NCBI RefSeq assembly: GCF_000238775.2
Contig: NZ_AFEJ02000002.1
Span: 1,597,501-1,661,500 of the forward strand
DNA length: 64,000 nucleotides
Direction: 5' to 3'
Origin: Acaryochloris sp. CCMEE 5410
GTDB lineage: Bacteria; Cyanobacteriota; Cyanobacteriia; Thermosynechococcales; Thermosynechococcaceae
Shown: positions 26,878 through 48,273 of the stretch, piece by piece
How positions within the stretch are numbered: the first letter of the stretch is position 1
Layout: each line of letters begins with the position of its first letter
The notes under the pieces: generated by a model
What the model was told of the DNA's origin: nothing
Seen by the model: only the letters and a program-made list of their open reading frames with translations
The model's database searches: none
Made by a program: the position numbers and the translations under genes

Positions 26878-29800
26878 ATGACTTCTAATGCAGCATTTCA
26901 GGTAGCTAAGCAACGGATTGCAGAGGCAAAGAGGATAGCAGCACCTACCCTTGATCTTTGTAGTTTAAAACTAACAGAAGTCCCCAAAGAAATTGGGCAA
27001 CTTACCAATCTGATAGCACTTTCCTTATCCGGCAACCAACTAACAGAAGTCCCCAAAGAAATTGGGAAACTTACCAATCTGATAGCACTTTCCTTATCCG
27101 GCAACCAACTAACAGAAGTCCCCAAAGAAATTGGGAAACTTGCCAATTTAACCCAACTTCGTCTCCACCAAAATCGACTAACGGAAGTTCCTGAAGAAAT
27201 TGGGCAACTTGCTAGCTTGACAGAGCTTAGCCTCTTTCAAAATCAACTAACAGAAGTTCCTAAAGAAATAGGACAACTCATCAACCTGACGGAACTTTAC
27301 CTCTCCCAAAATCAGCTGATGAAGATACCCAAAGACCTTGAACGACTCATCAGTCTAACAAAACTTTACCTCTCCCAAAATCAACTAACAGAAGCCCCGA
27401 AAGAACTTGGGAAACTCATCAATCTAATGGAGCTTTACCTCTCCCAGAATCAACTAACAGAAGTACCCAAGGAATTCGGACAACTCACCAGCCTAATAAA
27501 GCTGAACCTCTCCCAAAATAGACTGACAGGGGTTCCACAAGAACTTGGAGAACTCAAAAGCCTGACGGAACTCCATCTCTCCCAAAACAAACTCATGGAG
27601 GTACCAAAAGAACTTGGAAAACTTACCAACTTAACCTGGCTTCACATCGACCAAAATCAACTAACAGAGATTCCTGAAGAAATCGGACAACTTACCAAGC
27701 TAACAGAACTTTCCCTCTCCCATAATCAATTAAAAGAAGTACCTAAAGAACTCGGACAACTTGCTAGGCTTACTCGTTTTTCCCTCAGCCAAAATCAACT
27801 AATAGAGATACCAAAAGAAATCGGGAAAATCGCCAAATTAATCTGGCTTCGCATCGACCAAAATCAGCTAACAGAGGTTCCCAGAGAACTTAGTCAACTC
27901 GTCAATTTAACTCGACTCCACCTCCACCAAAATCAACTAACGAAAATTCCTAAAGAGCTTGGGAAAGTTACCAAGCTAACAGAACTTTCTCTCTCCCAGA
28001 ACCAACTAATAGAAGTACCTAAAGAACTTGGGCAACTCATCAATCTAGTGGAGCTTCGCCTCAACCAAAATCAATTGACTAAGGTTCCCAAAGAACTTGG
28101 AAAACTCACCAATCTGACTCGACTCCACCTCTCCTATAATAAGCTGATAGAAGTCCCCAAAGAACTTGGAAAACTCGCTAGCCTGAGGGAGCTTGACCTC
28201 GACCAAAATCAATTGACTAAGGTTCCCAAAGAACTTGGAAAACTTGCCAAGCTGGTGATACTTGACCTCAGCAATAACTCACTCAACCCTGAGCTGTCAG
28301 CAGCGTATGAGCAAGGACTAGAAACCTTTTTTGCCTATTTACAGGCGCAGGATGAGAACCAAATTATCTTGAATGAAGCCAAGCTCATCTTGATTGGTGA
28401 AGGGGAAGTCGGTAAGACTAGCTTATTGGGCGCACTTCGGGGTGATCCGTGGGTCGAAAATCGAGAAACGACGCATGGTGTCGAAGTCGATATCAAGTCC
28501 CTAGCTGTTCAAGATACTAATAGCGGCACCGACATCACCTTTAATGGCTGGGATTTTGGGGGCCAAAATATCTATCGCCATACCCACCAACTTTTCTTTA
28601 CTGCCCCAGCAATTTATCTTGCCGTTTGGAATCCTCGCCGCGGCCCAGAGCAATGCCGGGTCGATGAGTGGATCAAAATGGTCAAACATCGTGCCTATGA
28701 TGATGCTCGGCCTGATGTAAAGCCCTATATTTTTGTTGTAGCAACCCATGGTGGCCCCAACGAGCGGCTTGATCATATAGACGAACAAGCCCTCCGAGAT
28801 GAATTTGGGGATTTAACTGTCAGATTTCACCATGTGGATAGCAAAACTAAGTTTCAGCTTGATGACCTTAAACAGTCCATTACCAAGACTGCTGCCCAAA
28901 TCCCGCAAATTGGACGGGCTGTACCTGCGAGTTGGCAGCAAGTGCTAGAGGCGATTCGTGAGCGCAGCCAAACCGAACCCTGGATTACTTACGAACAGTT
29001 TCAAATTCTCTGCACCGAACAGCAGGTGGATTTAGCCTTAGCCAAAACCTACGCAGCCATCCTCAACGAATTAGGGCATCTGATTCACTACAACACAGAT
29101 CCGACCCTCAAAGATACCGTTATCCTCAAGCCCGAATGGCTAAGTAAAGCCATCAGCTTTGTTTTAGAAGATCCTCAAGTCAAAGCTCAGAATGGCCTGG
29201 TCCGCCATAGCCGTCTCAGCCATTTATGGAATGACCCAGCTAGAGGCGATGATCGCTATCCTCTCGAACTGCATCCCGTCTTTTGCAAGCTGATGGAACG
29301 ATTTGATCTGTCCTATCAAGTCGAACTGCCCGATGTCGATGCCCAAACCACCAGCTTAATTGCCCAACTGGTCCCCAGCAAACGACCTGAGAACTGGGAA
29401 CAAGCTTGGATACTACAACCCGGTGATACAGAACGAACCCAAGTCTGTCGTCTGCTCGATAAAGAAACGGGACGCACCGTAGAAGCTGAAGGATTAATGT
29501 ATCGGCTAATTGTCCGCTTACATCGCTATTCCCTGGGCCGTCAAAATTACTACGATAGCCGTCACTGGAAAAATGGCCTGATTCTAGACGATGGTTTTAA
29601 CGGTCGCGCCTTTATTGAAGAAATTGGAGGTGACCTCTATGTCACCGTCCGCGCCGCCTACCCCACAGGCTTCCTCGGGCATCTCTGTGCCGAAATTATA
29701 TGGCTCGTCAAATCCTTCTGGAAAGGCATTGACCCTCGCCTCTATATTCCCTGCCCTACCGAAAACTGTAAAGGCTTGCTAGAGCGGGAGGAAATCCTAG

Positions 29801-30585
29801 AGTTCAAGAACCAGGGCATGCCCAAGGTGCGCTGTGCCGTCTGCAAAACCTTCCACCCCATTGATGGTTTAATGGCCACCACTGTTGCCAAACCGGAATG
29901 GCAAGACGCTGTATCGGAACTAAAGCAAGGACAGCAACAGATCCTCACCGCCTTCAATACCAACTTTGATGCCCTTAGCGTTCAGCTCAAGATCCTAATG
30001 AGCCAAGCTGACGAGCAATTCCAAGCCCTCCTCACCACTCTGACTGATCCAGCTAAAGACGGTCCTCGCCTCTTTAGCTTTGAACCCGTCGATCCAGGCT
30101 TTTGGGATAAACCCAACTGGATAGCGCAAAAATTCCGGCTCACCCTCTGGTGCGAACATAGTCGGTTGCCCTTACCAGTAATCAGTGGTGAAGCCAAGAC
30201 AGGTGTTTACGAACTAGAAATCACTCACGATTGGCTGAAACGAGCCTCTCCCTTTCTCCGAATTCTGTCGGTTACCCTCAAACTAGCCTTACCCATCGCC
30301 ATTCCCGGCACCAAGCTTGCCACCGATGACGACGAGTACAAGGCCATCACCGAACAGCTAGAATTTGGCATCAAATCATCCACCTCGTTAATTTCAGGCA
30401 GCGAAAAAGTGGGCGATTGGTTAGTGGCAGGGGACGCCACCGAATTAAACCAGGCCAGTACAGCAACCCAAAACGTAATTCGTGCCCAAGGCTCAGTTCT
30501 ACGAGAGCTTCATGCATTACTCAGGGAGAAAGATCCAGCCAGTAGCTTTGGTGGCCTCGAACGAGTCCAAAATAGGGTTTGCTGA
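26878..30585 (+). CDS. ROCO protein (LRR-Roc-COR), 3' end truncated by insertion sequence
   Basis: A 1235-residue predicted signalling GTPase. Residues 32-468 are leucine-rich repeats, then a Roc GTPase domain begins near 499 with P-loop GEGEVGKTS and G3-type WDFGGQ. A COR domain follows at about 680-900. A CxxxxC...CxxC cysteine cluster lies near residues 959-990 (CPTENCKGLL, RCAVCKTF), then a C-terminal helical/beta module. Bacterial Roco proteins are GTPases that cycle between monomer and dimer, and the LRRs bind unknown partners. The last three codons (RVC) and the stop come from the terminal repeat of the insertion sequence beginning at 30575. The native tail KRREFLWVHPNYVSEY is found intact after the element. 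The protein is otherwise complete and may still fold. Confidence 0.93.
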   Translation: MTSNAAFQVAKQRIAEAKRIAAPTLDLCSLKLTEVPKEIGQLTNLIALSLSGNQLTEVPKEIGKLTNLIALSLSGNQLTEVPKEIGKLANLTQLRLHQNRLTEVPEEIGQLASLTELSLFQNQLTEVPKEIGQLINLTELYLSQNQLMKIPKDLERLISLTKLYLSQNQLTEAPKELGKLINLMELYLSQNQLTEVPKEFGQLTSLIKLNLSQNRLTGVPQELGELKSLTELHLSQNKLMEVPKELGKLTNLTWLHIDQNQLTEIPEEIGQLTKLTELSLSHNQLKEVPKELGQLARLTRFSLSQNQLIEIPKEIGKIAKLIWLRIDQNQLTEVPRELSQLVNLTRLHLHQNQLTKIPKELGKVTKLTELSLSQNQLIEVPKELGQLINLVELRLNQNQLTKVPKELGKLTNLTRLHLSYNKLIEVPKELGKLASLRELDLDQNQLTKVPKELGKLAKLVILDLSNNSLNPELSAAYEQGLETFFAYLQAQDENQIILNEAKLILIGEGEVGKTSLLGALRGDPWVENRETTHGVEVDIKSLAVQDTNSGTDITFNGWDFGGQNIYRHTHQLFFTAPAIYLAVWNPRRGPEQCRVDEWIKMVKHRAYDDARPDVKPYIFVVATHGGPNERLDHIDEQALRDEFGDLTVRFHHVDSKTKFQLDDLKQSITKTAAQIPQIGRAVPASWQQVLEAIRERSQTEPWITYEQFQILCTEQQVDLALAKTYAAILNELGHLIHYNTDPTLKDTVILKPEWLSKAISFVLEDPQVKAQNGLVRHSRLSHLWNDPARGDDRYPLELHPVFCKLMERFDLSYQVELPDVDAQTTSLIAQLVPSKRPENWEQAWILQPGDTERTQVCRLLDKETGRTVEAEGLMYRLIVRLHRYSLGRQNYYDSRHWKNGLILDDGFNGRAFIEEIGGDLYVTVRAAYPTGFLGHLCAEIIWLVKSFWKGIDPRLYIPCPTENCKGLLEREEILEFKNQGMPKVRCAVCKTFHPIDGLMATTVAKPEWQDAVSELKQGQQQILTAFNTNFDALSVQLKILMSQADEQFQALLTTLTDPAKDGPRLFSFEPVDPGFWDKPNWIAQKFRLTLWCEHSRLPLPVISGEAKTGVYELEITHDWLKRASPFLRILSVTLKLALPIAIPGTKLATDDDEYKAITEQLEFGIKSSTSLISGSEKVGDWLVAGDATELNQASTATQNVIRAQGSVLRELHALLREKDPASSFGGLERVQNRVC
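26971..28281 (+). repeat. 19 tandem 69-bp units encoding leucine-rich repeats
   Basis: The 1311 bases equal exactly 19 x 69, so every repeat encodes 23 residues with no insertion or deletion (consensus LTEVPKELGKLTNLTxLxLS, then xNQ). Units 1 and 2 (26971-27039 and 27040-27108) are nearly identical in DNA, and the start of unit 3 keeps the same sequence. This indicates a recent in-register duplication by slippage or recombination. Confidence 0.92.
30569..30574. repeat. target-site duplication, left copy (AAAATA)
   Basis: AAAATA here and again at 32268-32273 flanks the insertion sequence. Removing the element together with one copy restores the reading frame GTC CAA AAT AAA CGC, which continues into the native ROCO tail. 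The match extends two further bases (CC) on the outer/left side, but those bases also belong to the right terminal repeat. Confidence 0.85.
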
Positions 30586-32267
30586 AAAAGTAAATTGAGC
30601 TAATTCCTGGCATCAAATCGTACAATCAACCCAGTTGTGACGGCCAGGGCCATATTCCTTCACTGGCCCTAGAAAAGCCCCAAGGCAGCCCTGGCAGCTC
30701 CATAACGCTTTCCAACACCAGCAATCCCACCCAAAAATGAATGATAAAAGGTGGCGGAGCCACCGCTCTAGATTCATCACCAAGAACGTGATAGCAATCG
30801 CACTAGCAGCCGTATCCGCTAACTTCGCCATCACTCGATTCAAGCCAAATCTTCGCTTGGCCTGCCCAAACTTGCCCTCAATTTGGACTCTCACCTTTTC
30901 GTCCTCCCGTGCTTGTTGCTTGAGTTGGCCCTGCACCTGGGGTCTTGTTGAGGTCTTCCTAACGGTGGTCCACTCAATCGGATACCTCGAGCTTTACACC
31001 ATCGTCGATTAGCTCGGGTTCGATAGATTTGGTCGGCATGGACTGAGAGAGGATAATGGCCAAAGCGACGATGAAAAGCTTCCACTTGATATTGAAGATG
31101 CTGGGATTCATTGAACGCATCCCAGCTTAAACGTTCCAGAAACACACATCCGTTGACACAACTGAGGGATAGCTTGGCCCCAAACTCAACAGGTACTCCA
31201 GCTTTGCCTCGGACCATCGGTCGGACATGAGGCTGAGTGAGGCTGACAATACGGTCATCTACTCGACGCACGTGCTGTTGATACATCCACTCTTGCTGTC
31301 GAAAGACTTCATGAATCACCAGCAACAGACGGTACTGTCGCCGGGACAGTCGGGACAGAGACGCTCCTAAAGCTATCAATCCATCAATGTGGGCTAGATT
31401 CCGACGCACATAGCCCAACTGCTGACGAATCCCTTTACGAATCAGCTTGCGACTCGGTTGACGTTTCTTGGCAATGGCCAGATAAGCTTTGCGGGCCTTT
31501 TGGCGGTAGGTGCGAGGTTTGCCCTTGAGAGACAGCATGACTTGAGCATATAAAGCATCAAGGATGGCTTCACTCGCTTTGCGGGCATCATTGAGCAGAT
31601 CTAAGTCTGTCGGATAGCGAATATCGGCTGGCGCACAGGTCGCGTCTATCAACAATTGGCCCTGGTTGGGAGGGGCAGGAGGCTCATCTTCGTCATCTTC
31701 AGGAGAAGGAGATGACTCAGGGGACATCACAACAGGAGAACCCTCAGATGCGAGCACTGATTCCACGACTGCGTCGTTGACTTGAGTCAGCAGCTCTAGA
31801 TTCAACCGTTGGCGAAAGTGAACCAGCATGGAGGCATCAAACGGAGCACTCTCTCGATATTCACTAAACCCAGAAAGTACTGCAAGTAGGGGTTCTCTCG
31901 AATCTGTTCTACGGTCTCTGCGTCGGATACACCCAATTTCTCTTTGATGATTAAGGTCCCTAAGGCCACACGAAAGGGTTTGGCAGGTGCCCCATGGTCT
32001 GACTGAATTGGTCTGCATATTCTGATTCAAAGCTTTCCCAGGGAATCAGCTCGGCGAGTTTGACCCAGCGATTCTCTTCTGATAGTTTGCCTCCGAAGGG
32101 CAAGTAGAAGTTCTTAAAGGACAGTTGACCGGGGGATGGGCGACGATACATTGGGGTGCATGTGCAAAGGTTTTGAGTATTTTGAACGATTTTCCTTGCA
32201 CTTCTCAAGGGCGCTCAACACTTGGATACACTGCAAATATTCAACCTTAGACTTTCGAAGCAAGCCC
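30575..32267 (-). mobile_element. insertion sequence, 1693 bp, IS5/IS1182-like, decayed, inserted in the ROCO gene
   Basis: The ends are imperfect 17-bp inverted repeats: GGGTTTGCTGAAAAAGT at 30575-30591, and GGGCTTGCTTCGAAAGT as the complement of 32251-32267, with 13 of 17 positions identical. A 6-bp direct repeat AAAATA borders both ends. The single transposase frame reads leftwards and is broken by several frameshifts, so this copy is not autonomous. The boundaries are unusually secure because the host gene reads across them. Confidence 0.88.
30613..32151 (-). pseudogene. DDE transposase remnant with at least three frameshifts
   Basis: The fragments align to one transposase in order. Frame 1 begins MYRRPSPGQLSFKNFYLPFG. 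After a shift near 31990 the sequence continues as APAKPFRVALGTLIIKEKLG and RENPYLQYFLG. After a second shift near 31865 comes SEYRESAPFDASMLVHFRQR through IRLSGPPLGRPQQDP. After a third near 30940 comes QQAREDEKVRVQIEGKFGQA to ITFLVMNLERWLR. The conserved N-terminal domain and the IEGKFGQ(A/G)KRRFGLNR region fit IS5/IS1182-type DDE enzymes. The exact family name is uncertain. Confidence 0.87.
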
Positions 32268-32368: not shown

Positions 32369-32938
32369 TTACGGATCATTGGCATATCCCTCTGGAATAC
32401 TTACCAATTGTCGAACCTCTATTGGCTTACCTGGAAAAGCAACAGGACACACGATTCCGTCACTCACGACATTCTGAGTCGAATAATCACCATCCCATAA
32501 GTCTCTAAACATTGTCATTTCCCTTCCAGCCACATCAATGACCCAATACTCCGCAATACCTGCTTCCGCATAGAGCTTTCGTTTAGTGTTCAAATCGTAA
32601 GCCAGAGTAGAATCTGCAACCTCCACTAACCAATAAATATCTTCTGGATAGGGATGATGCTGTAGATAACGAGTATCCGGTCGACGCACAATCGCAATAT
32701 CTGGCTCAGGTTCAGACTTAGCCAGGGTAATAGGATGGCCCTCAAAAACGACTGCTTGCTTTTGAAGTATTTGTCTCAGGTAACCAGCATCGCGATCAGT
32801 AAAAAATCGATGAAGCTCCCGCTCTGGCGTGATATCCCAAATTTCTCCATTGATCAGTTCACAGCGCCGATGGTCAAGAATACCCAACTTTCGCATGCGC
32901 TGATAGTCTGCAACTGACCATTGGGTGGGTGTCCGCAC
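32369..32938 (-). CDS. Uma2 family (DUF820) predicted nuclease
   Basis: A PD-(D/E)xK-fold protein of the Uma2 family, which is greatly expanded in cyanobacteria. Family features are SVADYQRMRKLGILDHRRCE, LINGEIWDITPE, the metal-site region PEPDIAIVRRPD, and the EVADST..YDLNTKRKLYAEAG core with IAEYWVIDVAGRE. The frame is open to an ATG at 33034, but the extra 32 residues are not family-like. I prefer the GTG at 32938, which has a GGAG-type site just upstream (VRTPTQWSVADYQ). The role of the family is unclear. It lies next to the mobile-element scar. Confidence 0.82.
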   Translation of the reverse strand: MRTPTQWSVADYQRMRKLGILDHRRCELINGEIWDITPERELHRFFTDRDAGYLRQILQKQAVVFEGHPITLAKSEPEPDIAIVRRPDTRYLQHHPYPEDIYWLVEVADSTLAYDLNTKRKLYAEAGIAEYWVIDVAGREMTMFRDLWDGDYSTQNVVSDGIVCPVAFPGKPIEVRQLVSIPEGYANDP

Positions 32939-33050
32939 AACTGAACTCTCCCTTACAGGCCGAAGGTGTATCCATATCCTAACTTCACCTGACAGCCGAC
33001 TCAGAGATCTATCAACATACGAGATAGTGAACAACCCCAGCCATTTTTAT

Positions 33051-36935: not shown

Positions 36936-37169
36936 ATGTCTGAATTATTTACTGACTTGTCTGATCAACAGCAAGAACTCGTTGCTGGTGGTTCAGTCAC
37001 TCTACTCAACGTCAACGCGACCAACTTCTACTCAAATACTGAAATCCTTGGGGCTGCTGGAGCTGCTGGCTCTACTCCAGGTGGATCAGTTGCTGTTGGT
37101 GAAATTGCTGGTGCGAACCAAGAAATTTATACCAATGCTCTTGGTGTTCAATTTGGTAATGTTTCCTAG
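36936..37169 (+). CDS. double-glycine leader peptide precursor 1 (bacteriocin-like)
   Basis: A 77-residue precursor. The leader MSELFTDLSDQQQELVAGG (residues 1-19) has the hydrophobic/acidic pattern and the Gly-Gly that C39 peptidases cut. The mature part would be 58 residues, beginning SVTLLNVNATNFYSNTE and ending VQFGNVS, with Gly/Ala-rich middle parts and no Cys. The lack of Cys excludes lanthionine or disulfide bridges. It resembles cyanobacterial small proteins annotated as bacteriocins of this leader type, and the cognate HlyD and C39 exporter lie downstream. Activity (antimicrobial, signal or surface fibre) is not shown by the sequence. Confidence 0.88.
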   Translation: MSELFTDLSDQQQELVAGGSVTLLNVNATNFYSNTEILGAAGAAGSTPGGSVAVGEIAGANQEIYTNALGVQFGNVS

Positions 37170-37442
37170 GTACAGACTAACTCTAGTTTAATCATTACCA
37201 ACATTCCGTTGTATTGAGAACAACCAAGAGCTGGTCTTAATTGTGAACCTAGTACTCCACCACATAGAAGACGACAGGTTCCTAAAAGCTAAGATGCATT
37301 GACATCAAGCATTTTGCTTGCGGTGATTTTATCGAAATCACTGTGGCACAGTCCTAGGATATTCACAATTGTTTTGATCCCAGCTTTTGGTTAGTTCCAA
37401 GCATTATTCACATTCATTTTTTTGTGCAAGTGAGGTTACATC

Positions 37443-37676
37443 ATGTCTGAATTATTTACTGAATTGTCTGATCAACAGCAAGAGCTTGTAGCTGGTGGTT
37501 CAGTCACTCTACTCAACGTCAACGCGACCAACTTCTACTCCAATACTGAGATCCTTGGGGCTGCTGGGGCTGCTGGCTCCACACCAGGTGGATCAGTTGC
37601 TGTTGGCGAAATTGCTGGTGCGAACCAAGAAATTGATACTAAAGCACTTAGTGTTCAATTCGGTAACGTTGCTTAG
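37443..37676 (+). CDS. double-glycine leader peptide precursor 2 (near-copy of precursor 1)
   Basis: Also 77 residues. It differs from precursor 1 at only five positions: D7E in the leader and Y65D, N67K, G70S and S77A in the last 13 residues of the core. The GG cut site, the N-terminal core and the Gly/Ala block are unchanged. The preceding 13-base start element is conserved too, so gene and leader were duplicated together. It is separated from precursor 1 by 273 bases that contain two small hairpins (37306-37320 and 37323-37341), which could attenuate or process the message. Confidence 0.88.
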   Translation: MSELFTELSDQQQELVAGGSVTLLNVNATNFYSNTEILGAAGAAGSTPGGSVAVGEIAGANQEIDTKALSVQFGNVA

Positions 37677-37845
37677 GCATCATTTTTTGCCCTAACAACA
37701 TAGTTCTATTTTGTAAGACTACTGAAAGCAAGTGTATACAATACCGAACAAACTAACAATAATTCTTTTTTAGTTTGAAATTAAGCTTTTCAGCAGTACT
37801 TACATCTAATTCCATTAATCTCTTAAGTGCAAGTGAGGTCATATC

Positions 37846-38079
37846 ATGTCTGAATTATTTACTGAATTATCTGATCAACAGCAAGAACTCGTTGCTGGTG
37901 GTTCAATCACATTGATCAACGCCAATCTAACCAGCTTTAAATCCAATACTGAAGTCCTTGGGGCTGCAGGTGGAGCTGCTTCTGGCCCTGGTGGATCTGC
38001 CGCAGTTGGTGAAATTGCTGGTGCCAACCAAGAACTTCATACCACTGCCATTAACTTTCAGTATGGCAACGTACTATAG
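37846..38079 (+). CDS. double-glycine leader peptide precursor 3 (diverged paralogue)
   Basis: 77 residues. The leader MSELFTELSDQQQELVAGG is identical to that of precursor 2, but the core is diverged: SITLINANLTSFKSNTEVLG, then a Gly/Ala block, AVGEIAGANQELHTTAINFQ and YGNVL. Leader conservation with core divergence is the usual signature of a family processed by one peptidase and diversified at the product. There is no Cys. The same GTGCAAGTGAGGT element precedes it. It lies 169 bases after precursor 2. Confidence 0.88.
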   Translation: MSELFTELSDQQQELVAGGSITLINANLTSFKSNTEVLGAAGGAASGPGGSAAVGEIAGANQELHTTAINFQYGNVL

Positions 38080-38236
38080 TCATCCATTTGACTGAGTTTT
38101 AAGTTTCAAAACCACACGATTAGGGCTGTATAAATTGCATGAATTCTTTGAGTGAACAATGCTTGTCAAGTTCATTATGGAATCACAATTTCATTCAGCC
38201 CTATTCCAGTTTGTCCCAACGTTCCAATCACCCATT

Positions 38237-38482
38237 ATGTCTGGTCAATCCTCTGAGTTATTTATAGAGCTATCTGAACATGAGCAAGAAGGTGTTGCAG
38301 GGGGCACAACAACACTATTCAACTTAAATCAGACGGAATTCTTCTCTCAGTTAAACCTATATCAAGCGAGTGGCGTAGCCACTGCTGGCCCCAGCGGTGC
38401 TAGCGCATCTGGGTCAATCACCCACATGAACCAAACCATAGACACTAAGGCATTCAACTTCGCCTTCGGCCAGATTGATTGA
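38237..38482 (+). CDS. double-glycine leader peptide precursor 4
   Basis: About 81 residues from the ATG at 38237. In-frame ATGs at 38177 and 38159 would add 20 or 26 residues, and none has a strong ribosome site. The leader is SELFIELSEHEQEGVAGG and the core begins TTTLFNLNQTEFFSQLNLYQ. The C-terminal block MNQTIDTKAFNFAFGQID aligns with ANQEIDTKALSVQFGNV of precursor 2, so it is a true family member. Unlike 1-3 it lacks the 13-base start element upstream. A copy lies just after it instead. Confidence 0.82.
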   Translation: MSGQSSELFIELSEHEQEGVAGGTTTLFNLNQTEFFSQLNLYQASGVATAGPSGASASGSITHMNQTIDTKAFNFAFGQID

Positions 38483-38520
38483 TACAAAAAATCGGGAAGG
38501 CAGGTATCTCAATCATCCCA

Positions 38521-38533
38521 GTGCAAGTGAGGT
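38521..38533 (+). promoter_or_regulatory. orphan copy of the GTGCAAGTGAGGT element
   Basis: Identical to the three elements before precursors 1-3, but followed by TTTTGGATATATCC with no ATG or precursor frame. The next gene (the HlyD homologue) starts 175 bases later. It may be the scar of a deleted precursor gene, or a site with a role beyond ribosome binding. Confidence 0.75.
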
Positions 38534-38708
38534 TTTTGGATATATCCTGCTTTCCCTTAAGTGGCTAAAACATTGAGATTCCAGTGTTTTAGCTATTCAG
38601 AGAGCTTTTAGCTTCTCAAGGATTTAATTATAACAGGCATTAAAGATTAGCCCGTTTCTTGACCTAACCCCTTATCAATCTCCTTAATGCATAGCCCCAT
38701 AAGATTCC

Positions 38709-40013
38709 ATGAATACCCTCCAACCTGATCAACTTCACTTTGTTCAGGAAGATGAATTTTTACCCTCCATTAGCCCGTGGATTTCAATGGGGGGAATGGT
38801 TTTGGTGCTGGTATTCGGTGCCGCTGTTGCCATTTCCTCTACCCTCAAATTCAGCATTACTGTCAAAGCCCCTGCAGCCATTCGGCCTGCAGGTGGCCTG
38901 AGTATCGTCCAAAGTGGCATTGACGGCACCATTACTCATATCAACGTGGAGGAAAACCAGGTCGTCAAAAAAGGCGATCTGTTTGCACAGCTAGACGATT
39001 CAGGGTTGCAAACCCGCAAAAGCCAACTGCAAGGAGATATCCAATCTATTACTCTGCAGAGATATCAGATCAATGCTCAACTCAGAGCGTTAGACCATCA
39101 AATTATTGCTGAAACCCGGTTAGTCAGCCGTTCCATCGCCGCCGCAGAAGCCAACTTAACCTCACACCGTCGTCGCTACCAAGATCTTAAAATCAGTACC
39201 GAAGCAGACCTAGAAGAAGCCCAAGCCGGGTACCACCTGGCTTCTGAAGAGTATCTACGCTTCAAAGAACTCGAGGAATCAGGAGCCATTGCCAAGCTGC
39301 AGGTCAAAGAGAAAGAAGCCTCTTTGAAAGCAGCATCCGCCAGGATTAAGCGTCTCAAGGCTGCAACCAATCCGTCAGACGCCACTATTGATCAAGCCTT
39401 AGAACAAATTGCCCAGGAGAAAGCCAGAGGTAGTGTCACCCTTGCAGGCCTCAATCAACAAAAAGAACAGCTGATGCGCACCCGCATCGAAGCCCAAAAG
39501 CAGCTCCAACGGACTCAAAAAGAGCTACAGCAAATCGATAACGAACTCAAAGGCACTAAAATCCGGGCTCCCATTGATGGCACCGTTTTACAGCTCAATC
39601 TGCGCAATCCCGGCCAAGTGGTGCAGCCTGGAATCCCCATCGCTCAAATTGCCCCCCGCAACGCTCCTTTGATTATCAAGGCTAGGGTCAACGCCCAAGA
39701 TATCAACCAGGTGAAAACAGGGCAGATGGTTCAAATGCGCGTTTCAGCCTGCCCCTACACGGACTACGGCACCTTACAAGGAACCGTTATGAAGGTGTCA
39801 CCGGATGCCATTCCGGTGAATGATGCTAGCGGTCCAGCCACCAGTCCAGCTTTTTATGAAGTTACCGTTCAACCTCGAACCTTATATATGGGCAATCAAC
39901 AGCGCTGGTGCCGCCTGCAATTCGGGATGGAGGGTCGAGCCGATATTGTGTCACGCCAAGAAACCGTTCTCCAATTTGTATTGAAAAAAGCCCGCTTAAT
40001 GTCCAACTTTTAA
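38709..40013 (+). CDS. HlyD-family membrane fusion protein (peptide export adaptor)
   Basis: A 434-residue adaptor for a peptide ABC exporter. One N-terminal membrane helix (about residues 28-48) is followed by a lipoyl-like half-motif (IVQSGIDGTITHINVEENQV). A long alpha-hairpin coiled coil follows at about 100-280, then the second half (KIRAPIDGTVLQLNLRNPGQ) and a beta-barrel domain. This is the HlyD layout, linking the inner-membrane exporter to an outer-membrane channel. It lies 28-34 bases before the C39 exporter gene, and the two are almost certainly co-expressed. No TolC-type gene is in the window. Confidence 0.92.
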   Translation: MNTLQPDQLHFVQEDEFLPSISPWISMGGMVLVLVFGAAVAISSTLKFSITVKAPAAIRPAGGLSIVQSGIDGTITHINVEENQVVKKGDLFAQLDDSGLQTRKSQLQGDIQSITLQRYQINAQLRALDHQIIAETRLVSRSIAAAEANLTSHRRRYQDLKISTEADLEEAQAGYHLASEEYLRFKELEESGAIAKLQVKEKEASLKAASARIKRLKAATNPSDATIDQALEQIAQEKARGSVTLAGLNQQKEQLMRTRIEAQKQLQRTQKELQQIDNELKGTKIRAPIDGTVLQLNLRNPGQVVQPGIPIAQIAPRNAPLIIKARVNAQDINQVKTGQMVQMRVSACPYTDYGTLQGTVMKVSPDAIPVNDASGPATSPAFYEVTVQPRTLYMGNQQRWCRLQFGMEGRADIVSRQETVLQFVLKKARLMSNF

Positions 40014-40047
40014 ACTTGCCTGATCAAACGATAAAGGCACCTTGTCC

Positions 40048-42237
40048 ATGCCCTCTTTAATGCTCCTCAATCCCCTACTCAAATCACGCAAAAGCTACCA
40101 GTGTGTCAAGCAATGGAGCGAAGAAGATTGTGGAGCCGCCTGCCTAGCCTCAATCTGCAAGTATTATGGCCGTCTACTAAGCATTACCCGTAGTCGGGAA
40201 GTGGTGGGAACAGGACAACTTGGCACCACCCTTTTAGGTCTAAAAAGAGGCGCTGAAGCTTTAGGGTTCAATGCCCGTTCTGTGAAAGCATCAGAAGCTT
40301 TGATTGATCGGCTGCAGGAAATCCTACTGCCAGCCATTATCCACTGGAAAGGCTATCACTGGGTCATTCTCTATGGCAAACGCGGTCGCAAGTATGTTGT
40401 GGCCGATCCAGGCGTGGGGATTCGGTATCTCACCAAACAGGAACTTCTCGAATCATGGAATGGCATCATGCTCTTACTGGAGCCTGATATCGATCGGTTT
40501 CATGATCGAGGCGAAGACGAGGAAAAGTCCGGTGGATTTTCTCGCTTCCTGGGTCGAATTTGGCCCTATCGTACGATTCTGAGCCAAGCCCTTTTGATCA
40601 ATATTGTCCTGGGATTATTGGCCCTCTCCAGTCCTTTCCTCATCCAGATTCTAACCGATGATGTCTTGGTCCGTCAGGATATGGAGTTGCTGACGGTCGT
40701 AGTAGTGGGGGTTGTCATCTCCCAAGTGTTCAGTAGTAGCCTACAAATCATGCAGTCGAACTTGATAGCTCACTTTAGCCAGCGGCTGCAGCTAGGTTTA
40801 GTCTTAGAATTTGGTCGCAAAATCCTGCAACTCCCCTTGAACTACTATGAATCGCGCAGAAGCGGGGAGATTGTCAGCCGTTTGCGCGATATTAACGAAG
40901 TCAATCAACTCATATCGCAAATCGTCGTTCGGGTGCCCAGTCAAGTTTTTGTTGCCTTGATTTCCATTGGCTTCATGCTATTTTACAGCGCAAGTTTAAC
41001 CCTTGTTGCTGCAGTGATTGCCATGATCATGGCAATCTCAACCTTGCCATTTTTGCCGATATTGCGAAAGAAAACTCGCAATTTACTGATTCTATCTTCT
41101 GAAAATCAAGGGGTCTTAGTTGAGACGTTCAAAGGAGCGTTAGTCCTGAAAACGACTAACGCAGCGCCCCAGTTTTGGGAAGAGTTTCAATCTCGATTTG
41201 GCCGACTAACCCACCTCACCTTCAGCACCATCCAACTGAGTGTCCTCAACGGTACCTTTACTCAGTTGATTTCTAGTATTGGCAGTGTCGCCCTTTTAGC
41301 CACGGGTAGTTTGCTAGTCATCAGGGAAGAAATCAGTATTGGCCAGTTGCTGGCCTTTAACACCATGCAAGGCAATCTGCTGGCCTTGATGACGACCATC
41401 ATTGGCCTAACGGATGAATATTTTCGGGCTCAAACGGCAATTGGCCGTATTTTAGAGGTCATTGATGCCACACCAGAATCCGTCGGAGAGGCTAACAAAC
41501 CCTTTGCCCAGCTCTCTGGAGACCATGATATTACCTGCTCCCATTTAAACTTTCACCATGCCGGGCGAGTCGTTCTCCTGGATGATTTTTCCTTGACACT
41601 ACCTGGGGGGAAGGTAACCGTCATCATTGGGAAATCCGGCTGTGGTAAAAGCACCCTGGCCAAGGTGATCGCAGGCCTTTATCAAACCCAGTCTGGAACC
41701 GTCAGAATCGGTCCCTATAATTTACAGGATTTATCTATCGTCGCTCTCCGGCAGCAAGTCTCGTTTGTCCCCCAAGAACCTCATTTTTGGAGTCGCTCCA
41801 TTATCGAGAACTTTCAGCTAGGCAACCCGCAAGTCTCGTTTGAACAAATCGTAAAGGCCTGCCAAATTGCGGATGCTGACAGCTTTATCAGCGAATTACC
41901 CAATACGTACCAGACCGTTTTAGGTGAGTTTGGTGCCAACTTATCGGGTGGGCAGCGGCAGCGGTTAGCCATTGCTCGGGCCATTGTTAACGATCCACCC
42001 ATCTTGATTTTGGATGAATCCACTGCAGGCTTAGATCCCGTGAGCGAGGCCGAAGTCCTAGATAAGTTACTGGCCTATCGCCAAGGCAAAACGACCATCA
42101 TGATTTCCCACCGCCCCAGCACCATTAAACGAGCAGAGTGGTTGATTCAAATGGAAAAAGGCCAGCTGCTTTTGGAAGGAGACTTTGCCTCCCTAGCTAC
42201 TCAACCTGGAGAACATCAGAAGTTTTTAAACCACTAA
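40048..42237 (+). CDS. C39 peptidase-containing ABC exporter (bacteriocin/peptide type)
   Basis: About 729 residues. The N-terminal C39 protease has the catalytic Cys in WSEEDCGAACLASICKYYG (Cys28 from this start), the His in GYHWVILYG and the Asp in VADPGVG. It would cut leaders after Gly-Gly while exporting the core. A six-helix membrane domain follows at about 165-450. The ATPase domain has Walker A GKSGCGKST, signature LSGGQRQR and Walker B ILILDESTAGLD. A TTG two codons upstream is an alternative start. Its position between four precursor genes plus HlyD and the fifth precursor identifies its substrates. Confidence 0.94.
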   Translation: MPSLMLLNPLLKSRKSYQCVKQWSEEDCGAACLASICKYYGRLLSITRSREVVGTGQLGTTLLGLKRGAEALGFNARSVKASEALIDRLQEILLPAIIHWKGYHWVILYGKRGRKYVVADPGVGIRYLTKQELLESWNGIMLLLEPDIDRFHDRGEDEEKSGGFSRFLGRIWPYRTILSQALLINIVLGLLALSSPFLIQILTDDVLVRQDMELLTVVVVGVVISQVFSSSLQIMQSNLIAHFSQRLQLGLVLEFGRKILQLPLNYYESRRSGEIVSRLRDINEVNQLISQIVVRVPSQVFVALISIGFMLFYSASLTLVAAVIAMIMAISTLPFLPILRKKTRNLLILSSENQGVLVETFKGALVLKTTNAAPQFWEEFQSRFGRLTHLTFSTIQLSVLNGTFTQLISSIGSVALLATGSLLVIREEISIGQLLAFNTMQGNLLALMTTIIGLTDEYFRAQTAIGRILEVIDATPESVGEANKPFAQLSGDHDITCSHLNFHHAGRVVLLDDFSLTLPGGKVTVIIGKSGCGKSTLAKVIAGLYQTQSGTVRIGPYNLQDLSIVALRQQVSFVPQEPHFWSRSIIENFQLGNPQVSFEQIVKACQIADADSFISELPNTYQTVLGEFGANLSGGQRQRLAIARAIVNDPPILILDESTAGLDPVSEAEVLDKLLAYRQGKTTIMISHRPSTIKRAEWLIQMEKGQLLLEGDFASLATQPGEHQKFLNH

Positions 42238-42261
42238 TCAATCATCATTAGGAGAAAGATC

Positions 42262-42579
42262 ATGGCTCAATTACAAAACAGTCCGCAACTTCCGCAAATC
42301 ATCGATCCACCATCAGACTTATTTGTTGAATTATCTGATCCAGAACAGGAGACCATTTCAGCTGGATTTGGCTTAACCTATCTCTATTTTGAGCAGGAAA
42401 TCATTTCGTCGTCATCGTCCAATACGACGGAAATTGACAATCTATCTCCTGGCTCCGGTAGCGGTCGTACCTCTCAGCAAGCCAACTATGATTCGAAACG
42501 CACCACGTTTGCCTTCGGCGGATTAATTCCCATTCGTTCGGTTTCTTCGTTTATTGCCTCCATTCTCAAATTGTTTTAG
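42262..42579 (+). CDS. divergent fifth precursor-like peptide downstream of the exporter
   Basis: 105 residues with a strong ribosome site (AGGAGAAAGATC before the ATG). The leader PSDLFVELSDPEQETISAG aligns with the family, but the cut site is Ala-Gly instead of Gly-Gly. The core keeps the family pattern (LTYLYFEQEI, then the C-terminal ANYDSKRTTFAFGG) and then adds about 17 residues, including IRSVSSFIASILKLF, likely an amphipathic helix. It is 24 bases after the exporter. It may be a specialised product, an immunity-type or a regulatory peptide. No Cys is present. Confidence 0.75.
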   Translation: MAQLQNSPQLPQIIDPPSDLFVELSDPEQETISAGFGLTYLYFEQEIISSSSSNTTEIDNLSPGSGSGRTSQQANYDSKRTTFAFGGLIPIRSVSSFIASILKLF

Positions 42580-42660
42580 CGGGGTCGCGCTGAAGCTGCA
42601 TCATTGCGTAAATTGGCTATTCCGGTTGCAAGACTACTTCCCTATGAGATTGAGTTCAAC

Positions 42661-44001
42661 ATGACTAAGACGCTGGTGACAAATACTGTTTTAAGGCAGG
42701 ATAGTGGAGAGAGTGACGTTTCATCTCATCAGGTGATCCGATTGGATCGCTCCCTGAGTTCTTTGAGCACAGGTGAAGCGTCTGTATCATTAGGCCCCAT
42801 CATGTTGCAGTCTCTTGGACAACTTGTTTACACCAGTTTTCCTAACGTCGGGTTTAGGCACTTATCGAGTCCCCACATCCCGCAAGAGATTCAACATGCA
42901 TTTGTTCATCAAGTCGTCTACTTACGCTGGAACTCGTACAATCCCCCAGCTGCTGACTATCGGGCGGCCTACCTCTATCAAATTAATACAGACAATACCT
43001 TATTCGGGTGGTTGTATGGCGATGCCACCGATGATGTTGGTCGTCATGTTCCCTATTTTATTGGCTACCACCTGGCAGAACCGTTGACGGAAGATTATCT
43101 AAATAGTATCTATATCTGCCTACAGCGAGGACCAACAGCGATTTCTAGCAAGGAAGAGCTGAGTCAGGGGGTTTTAGAAAATATCTCTATTCCCGATATT
43201 CGCGGTTATCCCCCTGCTCGGATTGGCGTTGATATCCCCGATGATATTCGCAACTACAGCTGCACGTTTTTGCAAATGCAAGAGTTGCTGAATATCTTTG
43301 TGCCAGCCAGTGAACGTCAGTCCAGACTTTCCTCCCCGGCTGTCCCCTCTGAAGAAGTAGACCTCACCCAATCCCTCTCCAAGCAAAAAACCGTTATTCA
43401 GCCCCAGAAAAATCAGCCTGGGACGACGCTTCAACCCCGCCAATCTCAGCCGGCCCAACCTCAGTCGGCCCAGCTTCAACCGGCCCAGCCTCAGCCGGCC
43501 CCCATGAACTATCTAGAGCAAATTCTCTATGAATTAATTGCCAAACCCATTGGGATTCAAAGCGCATTTTTAGTGTCCATAGAAGGACTACCCATCACCT
43601 CTCCCATTGGTATTAGCGAAAATAGCGCCCTGATTATTGCTGGTACTATGCTGTATCTCGCTAGAAGTACTCACGAAGAATTGCAGTGGCAAGGCATTGA
43701 GAAAATTTCAGTCCAGGCCCAAGAAGGATACGTCATTTTAGCGAACTGTACATCAGATATTTTTCTGCTGGTCAAAGCAGCTAAGGCTTTAACGGGCTTA
43801 CTAGATGGCGAGATCAACCGCACGATCAAGCGTCTCCAAACCGCCCTCCAAATTGAACATTTGGATAAAGATACTGAGTTATCTCCAGAAGCCCAGCATG
43901 AGTTAGTGACCCAACTTAATTTAGATCAGGCCGCCTCAGACTTCTTAGAGGAATCCACCGATAACTTTGACATGCAATATCGGGGCAACTCTATCCAATA
44001 G
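42661..44001 (+). CDS. Roadblock/LC7 domain protein with novel N-terminal domain
   Basis: 446 residues from the ATG at 42661. A TTG at 42604 is in frame, but the ATG gives the better N-terminus. Residues 1-220 form a domain I do not recognise (ADYRAAYLYQINTDNTLFGW, AEPLTEDYLNSIYICLQRG). A Gln/Pro linker with repeated QPAQPQ units follows at about 240-280. A Roadblock/LC7 fold spans about 282-400: LVSIEGLPITSP, ALIIAGTMLYLARST and YVILANCTSDIFLLVKA. Roadblock proteins such as MglB bind and activate small GTPases. The next gene encodes a GTPase-like protein, so a functional pair is likely. Confidence 0.8.
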   Translation: MTKTLVTNTVLRQDSGESDVSSHQVIRLDRSLSSLSTGEASVSLGPIMLQSLGQLVYTSFPNVGFRHLSSPHIPQEIQHAFVHQVVYLRWNSYNPPAADYRAAYLYQINTDNTLFGWLYGDATDDVGRHVPYFIGYHLAEPLTEDYLNSIYICLQRGPTAISSKEELSQGVLENISIPDIRGYPPARIGVDIPDDIRNYSCTFLQMQELLNIFVPASERQSRLSSPAVPSEEVDLTQSLSKQKTVIQPQKNQPGTTLQPRQSQPAQPQSAQLQPAQPQPAPMNYLEQILYELIAKPIGIQSAFLVSIEGLPITSPIGISENSALIIAGTMLYLARSTHEELQWQGIEKISVQAQEGYVILANCTSDIFLLVKAAKALTGLLDGEINRTIKRLQTALQIEHLDKDTELSPEAQHELVTQLNLDQAASDFLEESTDNFDMQYRGNSIQ

Positions 44002-44155
44002 AGACTCGCTTTAGCCCTCCATGGGTATCGGTTTTCCCATGACTCTTCTATCATCCATGTCGAATCGTAGCCTCTTTAGGCTTCTATTTTTGGCATTTCA
44101 TCACATTCAATTTTCTAGTCCCCCCTTAATTTCTAGTCGTTAAATCGTTAAGACC

Positions 44156-45523
44156 ATGAGCTTATTATTTGGAGATGATCCTAAAACCCTGAATTTGCTG
44201 AGCATTGGTGAGCGGGGCGTCGGTAAAACTGTTTTTTTAGTCGGTAGCTATACCGAGTCAAACCATCGCTACGAAGGAGATCAGCCCAAAAAACGATGGT
44301 TTGACTGTGACGATCACGGTGCTCATAAAAATATCCAAGGGGTCTTGAACTATATTGCGCAAACGGGCCATTATCCCCCTCCCACCATGAAGATCGCTGA
44401 CTTCACCTTTAGCTTGAAGCAGAAACGGCTGTGGGGGACACAAACCCTCTGTCACTTCCGGTGGTGGGATATGCCCGGAGAAATCTGTGATTTGAACAAC
44501 CGTCAATTTCAATCGATGGTGTTGAGTTCCCAGGGTTGTTGCGTCTTTATCAATGCTTATTCCCTGATTCACGAACCGGCCTATTTAGAATCGGTCAAAG
44601 ACATGATCGAATTGGTGACTGCGATCTCATCTTTGATCAAACATCACAACCTGCAGTATCCGATGGCCCTGATCTTCACCCAATGCGATCGTTTAGAGGC
44701 AGGCCCCTTAGGCCAATTGCAAATTGAGAAATGTCTAGAACCCCTGATTATTCGCCTAGAGAATGCCCGCACCAACTATCGACGGTTTTACTCCTCTATC
44801 CCGATTGTGCGCATCGACGGCACCCCCGTTCTACGGGCCAGTGGCTCTGCCGATGGCCTGGTGTGGGTCACCTCTGAACTGTGTAAAGCTCGGTCAGTCC
44901 AATCTGGACAAGATTTGGCCACGAGTTTATCCCAAAGTACCTCCCTCGATCATCAATTTGTCCCTACAGTGCGACGCCCCGGCTTTACTCTGGGACTTAT
45001 TTCAGCTGGCGTGGTTGGCTTCTTAACCGTGGGGTTTGCCCTGACATCCCTCTGGTCCACCCAACCTCCCCAACAGGCACAAGCGACCCAAAGAACGCTC
45101 CAAGATCACCACAATGTGTTGACCCGAGATCCGAATAATTTAGACTCCCTGATTTCGGTCTACGACCATTATGTAGAGGTGGGTCAACTGGCTAAAGCGG
45201 TGCCGTTATTAGAGAAAATTGTGGCTCAAAAGCCGACCCATCTCGATTTAAAATTTAACTTGGCCGACCTCTATGAATTAACCGGAGAAAAGCAAAAAGC
45301 CGAAGCGACCTATGATGGGATTCTGACAGCCCAGCCCCAGGATGTTAAAGCCATTGTGGGGAAAGCAATTCTCAGGGGCGAAGCAGGCGATTTATCCACC
45401 GCTCAATCCCTATTTCAGCAGGCCGAAAACATCGCAGCGACTCAAGAGGCCAAAGGCAAAATCAAAGAGATTGCAGCCCAAACGCTGCAGACACAAGCGC
45501 CCGTCAACCCCAAAACGGAATAA
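44156..45523 (+). CDS. membrane-anchored GTPase-like protein with C-terminal TPRs
   Basis: 455 residues. The P-loop is GERGVGKT (residues 18-25), the switch-II-like motif is WWDMPGE (103-109) and the base-recognition motif is FTQCD (174-178), a variant of NKxD. A single membrane helix (about 278-300) is followed by tetratricopeptide-type helices (about 310-440, with LDSLISVYDHYVEVGQLAKA and LKFNLADLYELTGEKQKAEA). The order GTPase, membrane anchor, TPR is unusual. It lies 154 bases after the Roadblock gene, on the same strand as the peptide export genes. It could couple energy state or cell polarity to peptide secretion; this is inference. Confidence 0.82.
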   Translation: MSLLFGDDPKTLNLLSIGERGVGKTVFLVGSYTESNHRYEGDQPKKRWFDCDDHGAHKNIQGVLNYIAQTGHYPPPTMKIADFTFSLKQKRLWGTQTLCHFRWWDMPGEICDLNNRQFQSMVLSSQGCCVFINAYSLIHEPAYLESVKDMIELVTAISSLIKHHNLQYPMALIFTQCDRLEAGPLGQLQIEKCLEPLIIRLENARTNYRRFYSSIPIVRIDGTPVLRASGSADGLVWVTSELCKARSVQSGQDLATSLSQSTSLDHQFVPTVRRPGFTLGLISAGVVGFLTVGFALTSLWSTQPPQQAQATQRTLQDHHNVLTRDPNNLDSLISVYDHYVEVGQLAKAVPLLEKIVAQKPTHLDLKFNLADLYELTGEKQKAEATYDGILTAQPQDVKAIVGKAILRGEAGDLSTAQSLFQQAENIAATQEAKGKIKEIAAQTLQTQAPVNPKTE

Positions 45524-46339: not shown

Positions 46340-46717
46340 ATGGAAGATTCTCGCGACGTTTTAGAAAATAGAACTTTAAAGCGTCTTTTTCTATTCATTT
46401 ATTTGGTCCCTGTGTTTGGCGTCGTCCCGGCCCTCTGGACCCTCAGTCGACGAGATAGCGATCGCAAGCAGCGAGAAGTGAGCCGAGTAGCCACCCTGAT
46501 CGGCTTGGCCTGGCTGATCGGCACCCTACTTCTGACATCCGGTGTCGCCATTACTAGCGGTGAGAATGCCCAGAGTATGGGGATTTCGCAATTATTGTTC
46601 AACAGCTTATTTACATCCAGCTATTTTCTCAGCAACCTCTGGCTGATGGTGCGAGTTTGGCGACGTCAGTCCCTCGACCTTCCAGGGCTAAAACGCATTA
46701 CTAAATATTTACCCTAA
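46340..46717 (+). CDS. conserved small membrane protein, operon with DUF697-type GTPase
   Basis: 125 residues with an N-terminal helix (LFLFIYLVPVFGVVPALWTL), a basic loop (SRRDSDRKQREVSRVA) and two further helices. It ends 2 bases before the GTPase gene start, so the two are surely co-transcribed. It resembles cyanobacterial hypothetical membrane proteins found at this position. No function can be named, but a membrane partner for the GTPase is a fair inference. Confidence 0.78.
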   Translation: MEDSRDVLENRTLKRLFLFIYLVPVFGVVPALWTLSRRDSDRKQREVSRVATLIGLAWLIGTLLLTSGVAITSGENAQSMGISQLLFNSLFTSSYFLSNLWLMVRVWRRQSLDLPGLKRITKYLP

Positions 46718-46719
46718 CG

Positions 46720-48273
46720 ATGGCCTGGCCCCGCCTCCTTATTCTGCTATTAGGCCTCGCTATTATTTTGGGGCTGATGCTCTGGCTGATCAGCTCACTG
46801 CAATGGCTATACGCCCAAGTGGCCCTGACCTCGCCTTTTTTAGCCAACTTACTGGTGTTCTGCCTGATTGCCTTAATGGCCGTTCTGATCGGGGTTTTTA
46901 TCTATTACGGTTGGCAGTTTCGAGGCCGAAAAAAGCCCAAGCAACAGCGTCCGCCTCAAGTCCCCACGGATAAGGTCGATGCCGCTGCCTCCAATCTCCG
47001 TGCCGTGCATCGTCAGATCCAGCAGATCCAAGACGAAGTCACCCGCCAAGCCCTACTGAAAGAAACGCGGCAAATGGCGAAGACCTTTACCCGCCGGGAA
47101 CTCAAAATCGTCGTCTTTGGCACGGGGTCCGCAGGCAAGACCTCTTTGGTCAATGGGATTGTGGGACAAATGGTGGGGGAAGTCGGCGCAACCATCGGCA
47201 CCACGGCGATAGGACAAACCTTTCGCTGTCAGCTACGCAGTGTTGATCAGGCGTTACTGGTTACGGATACCCCAGGATTATCTGAACCGGGCGTTGCCGG
47301 TACCGAGCGAGAACAGGCTGCCCGGAAGCTAGCAACAGAAGCCGATTTACTGCTGTTTGTGGTTGATGGTGATTTAACCCAGTCTGAATATCAGCCCCTA
47401 AGGGCCTTGGGCCGAATGGGTAAACGGTCTCTGTTAGTGTTCAATAAAACAGATTGCTATACCCAAACCGACCAAGACCTGATTCAGAAACGCCTGCATG
47501 AGCGTGTCCAGAACTGGATTCAGCCGGAAGACGTGGTTGCGATCGCAGCCCGTCCCCAACCCATCCGATTAGCCTCTGGGGAGATCCTAGAACCGGAGCC
47601 AGACCTCAAAGCGCTTCTCCAACGCATCTCTCGAATTCTGCGGCAAGAGGGAGAGGACTTATTTGCCGATAATATTCTGCTTCAATCCCAACGTTTAGGG
47701 GCAGAAGCTCGACAGCAGATCGATCAAGAACGTCGTCAGCAAGCCGACCAAATTGTCGATCGGTTTCAATGGATCGGCGCTGGCGTGATTTGGGTCACCC
47801 CGGTCCCCGTCATTGATTTGCTAGCAACCGCTGCCGTCAACACCCAAATGGTGATTGAGATTGCCAAAATTTATGGCTGCGATCTGACCCTCGATCGAGC
47901 CAAAGACTTGGCCCTCTCCCTCGCGAAGACCATGGTCAGTTTGGGCATAGTCAAAGGTGCGATTGAAGTATTTGCCCGGGCCTTGCAGTTTAGTGTGGTG
48001 GGATTTGTCGTCGGTAAAACCATTCAAAGCGTGGGAGCCGCCTATCTAACGCGAATCGCGGGTAAGAGCTTTATTGAATATTTTCGCAACGATCAAGAGT
48101 GGGGAGATGGCGGTATGACAGAAGTCGTCCAGCGCCAGTTTCAACTCCATCGCCGTGATCGGTTCGTCAAAGCCTTTATCCAAGAGGCGATCACCAAACT
48201 TCCAGCCGAATTCGGCCGTCGCGTCCAGGAGCAGTTAAGCCCGACTCGTTCTGAGCCGACCGACCATCCTTAA
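46720..48273 (+). CDS. membrane-associated GTPase with DUF697-type C-terminus
   Basis: 517 residues. Two N-terminal membrane helices (about 3-28 and 38-65) are followed by a coiled region and a TrmE/Era-like G domain: G1 GTGSAGKTS, G3 DTPGLSEPG and G4 FNKTD. The C-terminal part (about 340-480) contains GAGVIWVTPVPVIDLLATAA and further hydrophobic helices, matching the DUF697 domain of YcjF/YcjX-related proteins. Such proteins occur widely in cyanobacteria, and the cell role is not settled. It is preceded 2 bases upstream by its small membrane partner. Confidence 0.87.
   Translation: MAWPRLLILLLGLAIILGLMLWLISSLQWLYAQVALTSPFLANLLVFCLIALMAVLIGVFIYYGWQFRGRKKPKQQRPPQVPTDKVDAAASNLRAVHRQIQQIQDEVTRQALLKETRQMAKTFTRRELKIVVFGTGSAGKTSLVNGIVGQMVGEVGATIGTTAIGQTFRCQLRSVDQALLVTDTPGLSEPGVAGTEREQAARKLATEADLLLFVVDGDLTQSEYQPLRALGRMGKRSLLVFNKTDCYTQTDQDLIQKRLHERVQNWIQPEDVVAIAARPQPIRLASGEILEPEPDLKALLQRISRILRQEGEDLFADNILLQSQRLGAEARQQIDQERRQQADQIVDRFQWIGAGVIWVTPVPVIDLLATAAVNTQMVIEIAKIYGCDLTLDRAKDLALSLAKTMVSLGIVKGAIEVFARALQFSVVGFVVGKTIQSVGAAYLTRIAGKSFIEYFRNDQEWGDGGMTEVVQRQFQLHRRDRFVKAFIQEAITKLPAEFGRRVQEQLSPTRSEPTDHP

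Follow-up and report, generated by a model that had tools for sequence, protein, structure and literature searches.

The window, i.e. the whole stretch of 64,000 nucleotides of Acaryochloris sp. CCMEE 5410 that was analysed, comes from the 8.1 Mb genome of a cyanobacterium and carries on its + strand, at 36936-45523, four tandem precursors of the CTB type, an HlyD protein, a C39 peptidase-ABC transporter (C39-ABC), a fifth precursor, a Roadblock protein and a GTPase-membrane helix-TPR protein. The parts, with the evidence for each, are as follows:

36936..37169, +, CTB-family precursor 1 (NCBIfam NF038167, 54.6 bits; leader ...LSDQQQELVAGG)
37443..37676, +, CTB-family precursor 2, a near copy of precursor 1 (sequence and leader motif)
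37846..38079, +, CTB-family precursor 3 (NF038167, 54.7 bits)
38159..38482, +, CTB-family precursor 4 (NF038167, 61.5 bits)
38709..40013, +, HlyD-type membrane fusion protein (Pfam HlyD_3, 1e-23; TIGR01843, 181 bits, below its cut-off of 208.65)
40042..42237, +, C39 peptidase-ABC transporter (Pfam Peptidase_C39, 1e-32; ABC_membrane; ABC_tran)
42262..42579, +, fifth precursor, its leader ending in SAG and not GG (NF038167, 20.1 bits; alignment of 13 homologues)
42661..44001, +, partner protein, consisting of N-domain, linker and Roadblock (ATG start; alternative TTG at 42604)
42805..43320, +, N-domain of the partner, residues 49-220 (alignment of 35 relatives; pLDDT mostly >90)
43501..43863, +, Roadblock/LC7 domain of the partner, residues 281-401 (PDB fold match of the predicted model)
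44156..45523, +, GTPase-membrane helix-TPR protein (ORF, Pfam and predicted model)
44156..44905, +, G-domain, predicted to be of the DO-GTPase2 kind, residues 1-250 (paralogue in the same genome; fold match)
44987..45043, +, single hydrophobic helix, residues 278-296 (hydropathy scan)
45071..45490, +, TPR region, residues ~306-445 (Pfam TPR_19, 2e-10, and predicted model)

Other Acaryochloris genomes conserve the reading frames of the exporter, of the fifth precursor and of the pair (partner and GTPase) at the protein level, with 50-95% identity, and these ORFs are therefore not products of chance. The fifth precursor is separated from the partner gene by 81 bp and the partner gene from the GTPase gene by 154 bp, a looser spacing than in locus L077 (see below); scans for promoters and terminators gave matches at chance level only and are uninformative on operon structure. 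Upstream of the cluster lie a Roco-type protein (26878-30585, +), in which a long leucine-rich repeat array is followed by a Roc GTPase and COR-A/COR-B, a DDE transposase (30891-32030, -) and a Uma2-type nuclease (32369-33034, -). Just downstream of the pair is a second GTPase (46720-48273, +; MMR_HSR1 and DUF697); other Acaryochloris genomes conserve it along with ORF 46340-46717 and an RND efflux pair.

The export part of the locus shares with known CTB clusters (NF038167; genome mining by Wang et al. 2011, PMC3140520) the HlyD protein, the short C39-ABC and the tandem GG-leader precursors, and differs from them in the attached GTPase pair and in the fifth precursor, which falls below the family cut-off and has a leader ending in AG. 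Precursors 1, 3, 4 and the fifth were scanned with NF038167, the NCBIfam model of CTB family bacteriocins (cut-off 32 bits), precursor 2 being left out; the first three score above the cut-off (54.6-61.5 bits) and the fifth below it (20.1 bits). The AG ending is found in all six of six Acaryochloris genomes and GG is kept in other lineages; the homologues share a core end conserved around RTTFAF and a hydrophobic tail. At the exporter-linked loci examined, a homologue of the fifth precursor sits between C39-ABC and the pair; at exporter-free pair loci, the pattern used found no CTB-type leader peptides except isolated chance-like matches. The word GTPase is absent from the text of the 2011 survey (Wang et al., PMC3140520) and, as had been anticipated in the preliminary description of this DNA, the literature searched (subscription papers not covered) yielded no bacteriocin system described as having such a pair; it likewise describes neither the N-domain, nor the cyanobacterial pair, nor its link to peptide export.

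The gene behind the fifth precursor had been read as a Roadblock protein with an unrecognised N-terminal domain, and this is borne out by the analysis of ORF 42661-44001: the N-terminal 220 residues have no Pfam match in the window protein (sporadic sub-threshold matches occur among 35 relatives), and the Roadblock domain of the predicted model matches 9jue_A with Z 16.4 and MglB (6hjm) with Z 15.2, the fold matches spanning residues 282-398. The Pfam model Robl_LC7 falls near residues 312-392 of the longer, TTG-start form of the partner, with 20.1 bits in hmmscan (below the cut-off of 23) and 23.9 bits in a genome search (above it). Judged from the predicted model, the partner's Roadblock domain is genuine. 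The N-domain (~170 aa, residues 49-220) is confidently folded in the model and common to the 35 relatives; it is the constant part of a partner family whose variable modules are Roadblock, seven-bladed WD40, caspase (with or without WD40), pentapeptide, PBP-like and V4R. A profile search of the N-domain against PDB sequences gave nothing significant. Its elements in the predicted model follow the order b-b-a-b-b-b-a, i.e. that of longin domains; since the full-length fold search was filled by matches to the Roadblock domain, a longin-like N-domain is at this point a lead only.

Two other identities of the N-domain were considered and rejected. That it is a divergent Roadblock domain finds no support (hhalign against a Roadblock profile, probability 0.2%), and negative Pfam searches rule against GAP1-N2 (PF20013), which had no match among the N-domain relatives and in the window's own genome only an unrelated match of 15 bits. 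GAP1-N2 was above its cut-off in 0 of 292 cyanobacterial genomes, with the positive control, C. glutamicum, detected; the partner is thus not established as a member of GAP1. At L083 and L093-L098, N-domains combined with Roadblock, caspase or PBP-like parts are encoded without an adjacent GTPase, and several of these loci are in genomes where no GTPase of the pair's family was found.

The second protein of the pair (ORF 44156-45523) has all the features first noted in it, i.e. the motifs GERGVGKT, DMPGE (Walker B) and TQCD, one membrane helix and TPRs. Across 54 GTPase relatives, residues S16, G18, R20, G21, G23, K24, P107, G108, E109, T175 and D178 are invariant and D105 is kept in at least 90%; the Walker B glutamate (DxPGE) that characterizes DO-GTPase2 is present. 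Pfam matches of the window protein itself are limited to TPRs, with neither DO-GTPase2 (PF19993) nor Ras/Arf/Roc listed at E<1. PF19993 is matched by 21 of 26 GTPase relatives (best 3.4e-7), the GTPases of L081, L087, L099 and L146 lie above its cut-off of 27 bits, and a paralogue in the window's own genome scores 48.7 bits and has 35% identity to the window G-domain (5e-61). On the strength of these relatives and of the above-cut-off paralogue, the window GTPase is, by transitive homology, a member of the DO-GTPase2 family; its predicted G-domain structure matches the fold of Ras/Arl/Rag GTPases and YcjX with Z 14.5-16.4.

These assignments bear on the MglA/MglB analogy drawn in the preliminary description; read in this way, the pair would be a polarity switch that places the exporter at a pole, with the Roadblock protein as GAP. 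As in MglA/MglB and the Streptomyces conservons (PMC4316618), a Roadblock/LC7 domain adjoins a GTPase gene, and the domain is a real one whose fold matches that of MglB. However, the window GTPase is not recognised as a single-domain Ras-like GTPase of the MglA family, its fold match showing only the general Ras-like fold; the window GTPase is of another family than in MglA/MglB and the conservons (not MglA, Ras or Arf by Pfam) and is membrane-anchored with TPRs, and the window partner has the extra N-domain. A further difference from the conservons is that the window genes read around the pair include no histidine kinase of the conservon type. Roadblock is, moreover, one of several interchangeable modules and is replaced by WD40 in the exporter loci outside Acaryochloris. 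The MglA/MglB-like reading is not supported, and we consider a polarity switch highly improbable.

The hydropathy scan places two K/R just before helix 278-296 of the GTPase and none after it, which makes an N-in/C-out orientation likely; in the GTPases of both exporter-linked groups, K/R are more numerous ahead of the single helix than behind it. Partners of the WD40 type have one helix between the N-domain and the propeller; some of them show a clear charge bias and others none. Under the positive-inside rule, the G-domain and the N-domain would thus be cytoplasmic and the TPR or WD40 region periplasmic; for the window protein, the TPR region probably faces the periplasm.

Acaryochloris has other GTPases of this family. 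A paralogous pair in the window's own genome (G000:C2:32547-37069; L091 7547-12069) consists of a GTPase-TPR protein and an N-domain-caspase-membrane helix-WD40 protein, and is conserved in at least five Acaryochloris genomes. At L211 6585-9650, a third, helix-free DO-GTPase2 stands directly before a CHAT-TIR-AAA_35 protein that resembles a defence effector; in the window genome, the third DO-GTPase2 is present (L209) and the CHAT-TIR-AAA_35 neighbour is absent.

A scan of 84,980 genomes with a GTPase pattern gave 59 loci, all but two of them in cyanobacteria-named records. The two others (L109, L152) are labelled Candidatus Gracilibacteria SU_1_2; their pair genes are nearly identical to those of Hydrococcus, adjoin them in the tree, and probably come from a mis-binned assembly. 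A plasmid search returned no relatives of the window pair. An N-domain gene lies <=6.5 kb from the GTPase for 50 of 65 distinct GTPases, with Roadblock, WD40, caspase plus WD40, pentapeptide or other tails; the pairing is not obligate, since G080 and G168 have the N-domain and no recognisable GTPase of the pair's family. A C39-ABC exporter is found <=9 kb away for 14 of the 65, in Acaryochloris and in Leptolyngbyales- and Nostocales-type genomes. Because the remaining 51 are away from exporters, the pair is a general and mostly exporter-independent module. The window pair is one member of a family of cyanobacterial switch modules that is widespread and has no published description. The gene-neighbourhood check thus finds homologues regularly apart from exporters; of the initial proposal of a GTPase pair in an exporter locus, the recurrent link stands and the specificity for exporters falls together with the MglA/MglB reading.

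The gene order of the exporter-linked loci is conserved and tightly packed. Six Acaryochloris genomes share the order exporter, fifth precursor, N-domain-Roadblock and GTPase-TPR; in the other linked loci (Myxacorys, Pseudanabaenaceae LEGE 13415, Leptolyngbyaceae MO_188.B28, Dendronalium, two loci of Desmonostoc, G211 and G115) the order is exporter, fifth-precursor homologue, GTPase without TPR and N-domain-WD40. The attachment of the pair to a C39/HlyD exporter with CTB-type precursors, noted at the outset for the window, is thus conserved well beyond Acaryochloris. Genes of L077 and L134 lie 5-11 bp apart or overlap by 1 bp, the gaps of L077 from HlyD through the partner gene being 5, 11, 5 and -1 bp, which is operon-like. 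That the same kind of pair is present in several cyanobacterial exporter operons suggests GTPase control or sensing of peptide export.

How often this link arose was read from trees. A first tree, in which all linked exporters formed one clade and each readable member had the pair, proved to be a sampling effect: with 20 more exporters, 15 unlinked ones of Nostocaceae type split the linked exporters into two groups, and one clade for all linked exporters is rejected (AU p = 0.003). Exporters of the close clade without an adjoining pair number 16, i.e. the 15 of Nostocaceae type and that of G037, which has the exporter and the fifth-precursor homologue; G161 has an exporter of this clade and no recognisable GTPase in its genome. 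The GTPase tree separates the exporter-linked GTPases, and a topology joining them with their nearest relatives is not rejected (AU p = 0.137), so that this tree alone does not show two origins. The history of the pair was either two gains, or one gain with loss in Nostocaceae; two gains are probably the case, given the different pair types, the opposite gene order and the separate places in the GTPase tree.

The same observations bear on whether the pair and the exporter work together at all, for the pair might be an independent module that travels with the exporter operon or was inserted behind it, the neighbours having no shared function. Most homologues are elsewhere, many close exporters have no pair, and the gaps in Acaryochloris are the larger ones, all of which agrees with such a module; but probably two attachments, with different pair types, were made to the same exporter subfamily, the genes overlap in L077/L134, and no Acaryochloris genome with the exporter cluster lacks the pair. 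We consider independence unlikely.

In the literature searched, DO-GTPase systems rest on essentially one comparative-genomics paper (Kaur et al. 2020, eLife 9:e52696, PMC7159879), which describes DO-GTPases with a Walker B glutamate and an adjacent GAP1 partner as predicted conflict systems, some of which have ligand-binding domains that follow a C-terminal membrane helix and lie outside the cell. The window pair is like these DO-GTPase/GAP1 systems (PF19993, PF20013) in that its GTPase is of the same family, as judged above, with Glu in Walker B (DxPGE), and in that an adjacent gene encodes a partner whose N-terminal domain is constant and whose C-terminal modules vary, an analogy of layout and not homology of the partners; membrane helices with extracellular domains behind them are common there too. 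It differs in its N-domain, unmatched by GAP1-N2, and in that the zinc ribbons, FNIII and GASH protein are not seen in the cyanobacterial pair; cyanobacteria are absent from the phyla given for GAP1-N1 or GAP1-N2, and a peptide exporter is nowhere mentioned in that paper (PMC7159879).

This kinship raises the alternative that the pair is a defence or conflict switch of the DO-GTPase kind, which would sense invasion or envelope damage and have as its output peptide release, or self-protection of the producer. The GTPase family is that of predicted conflict systems (Kaur et al., PMC7159879), caspases are found in partners elsewhere, the third DO-GTPase2 of Acaryochloris adjoins a CHAT-TIR-AAA protein, and a separate immunity gene was not recognised in the exporter loci (no dedicated search). 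However, no exporter-linked partner carries a caspase or TIR, PADLOC gave no match for the window pair, and CTB peptides are not known to be toxic; in Synechococcus, peptides with the GG motif have a part in biofilm formation (PMC4997328). We regard a defence switch, in which control would run from a danger signal to the exporter and not from export status to the GTPase, as somewhat unlikely.

The reading that we prefer, and hold tentatively as possible rather than probable, is that the pair is a transmembrane two-protein GTPase switch that gates or senses CTB-type peptide export, the direction of control being conjectural. The GTPase domain and the partner's N-domain and Roadblock would lie in the cytoplasm, on the membrane side that the charge bias points to, and the GTPase would be anchored by its one helix with the TPRs probably in the periplasm; in the exporter-linked form of the WD40 type, the partner's propeller would take the periplasmic place of the TPRs. 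The periplasmic repeat domain may touch the HlyD conduit, the exported peptides or the envelope, and this putative contact would change the nucleotide state of the GTPase. The N-domain (with Roadblock in the window) could bind the GTPase and serve as its regulator or effector platform, and the state of the GTPase would determine how active the neighbouring C39-ABC/HlyD exporter is, or how it assembles, notably for the fifth peptide. A broader version, which we find quite improbable as a whole, is that membrane GTPase switches of a class peculiar to cyanobacteria use a longin-like N-domain, joined to Roadblock or another module, as the platform for an anchored DO-GTPase, and that such switches were recruited on at least two occasions to govern the type I secretion of bacteriocin-type peptides.

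The findings extend DO-GTPase systems to cyanobacteria, with a partner domain that lacks a Pfam model. If the longin-platform reading is true, the locus would hold the first peptide exporter gated by a GTPase, and would parallel in bacteria the longin/Roadblock platforms of Rag and Rab GTPases. GG-leader peptides and C39 exporters are common in cyanobacteria, and what triggers release of the peptides is largely unknown; a GTPase switch with interchangeable sensor domains, which joined one exporter subfamily probably on more than one occasion, makes the question of the release trigger directly testable.
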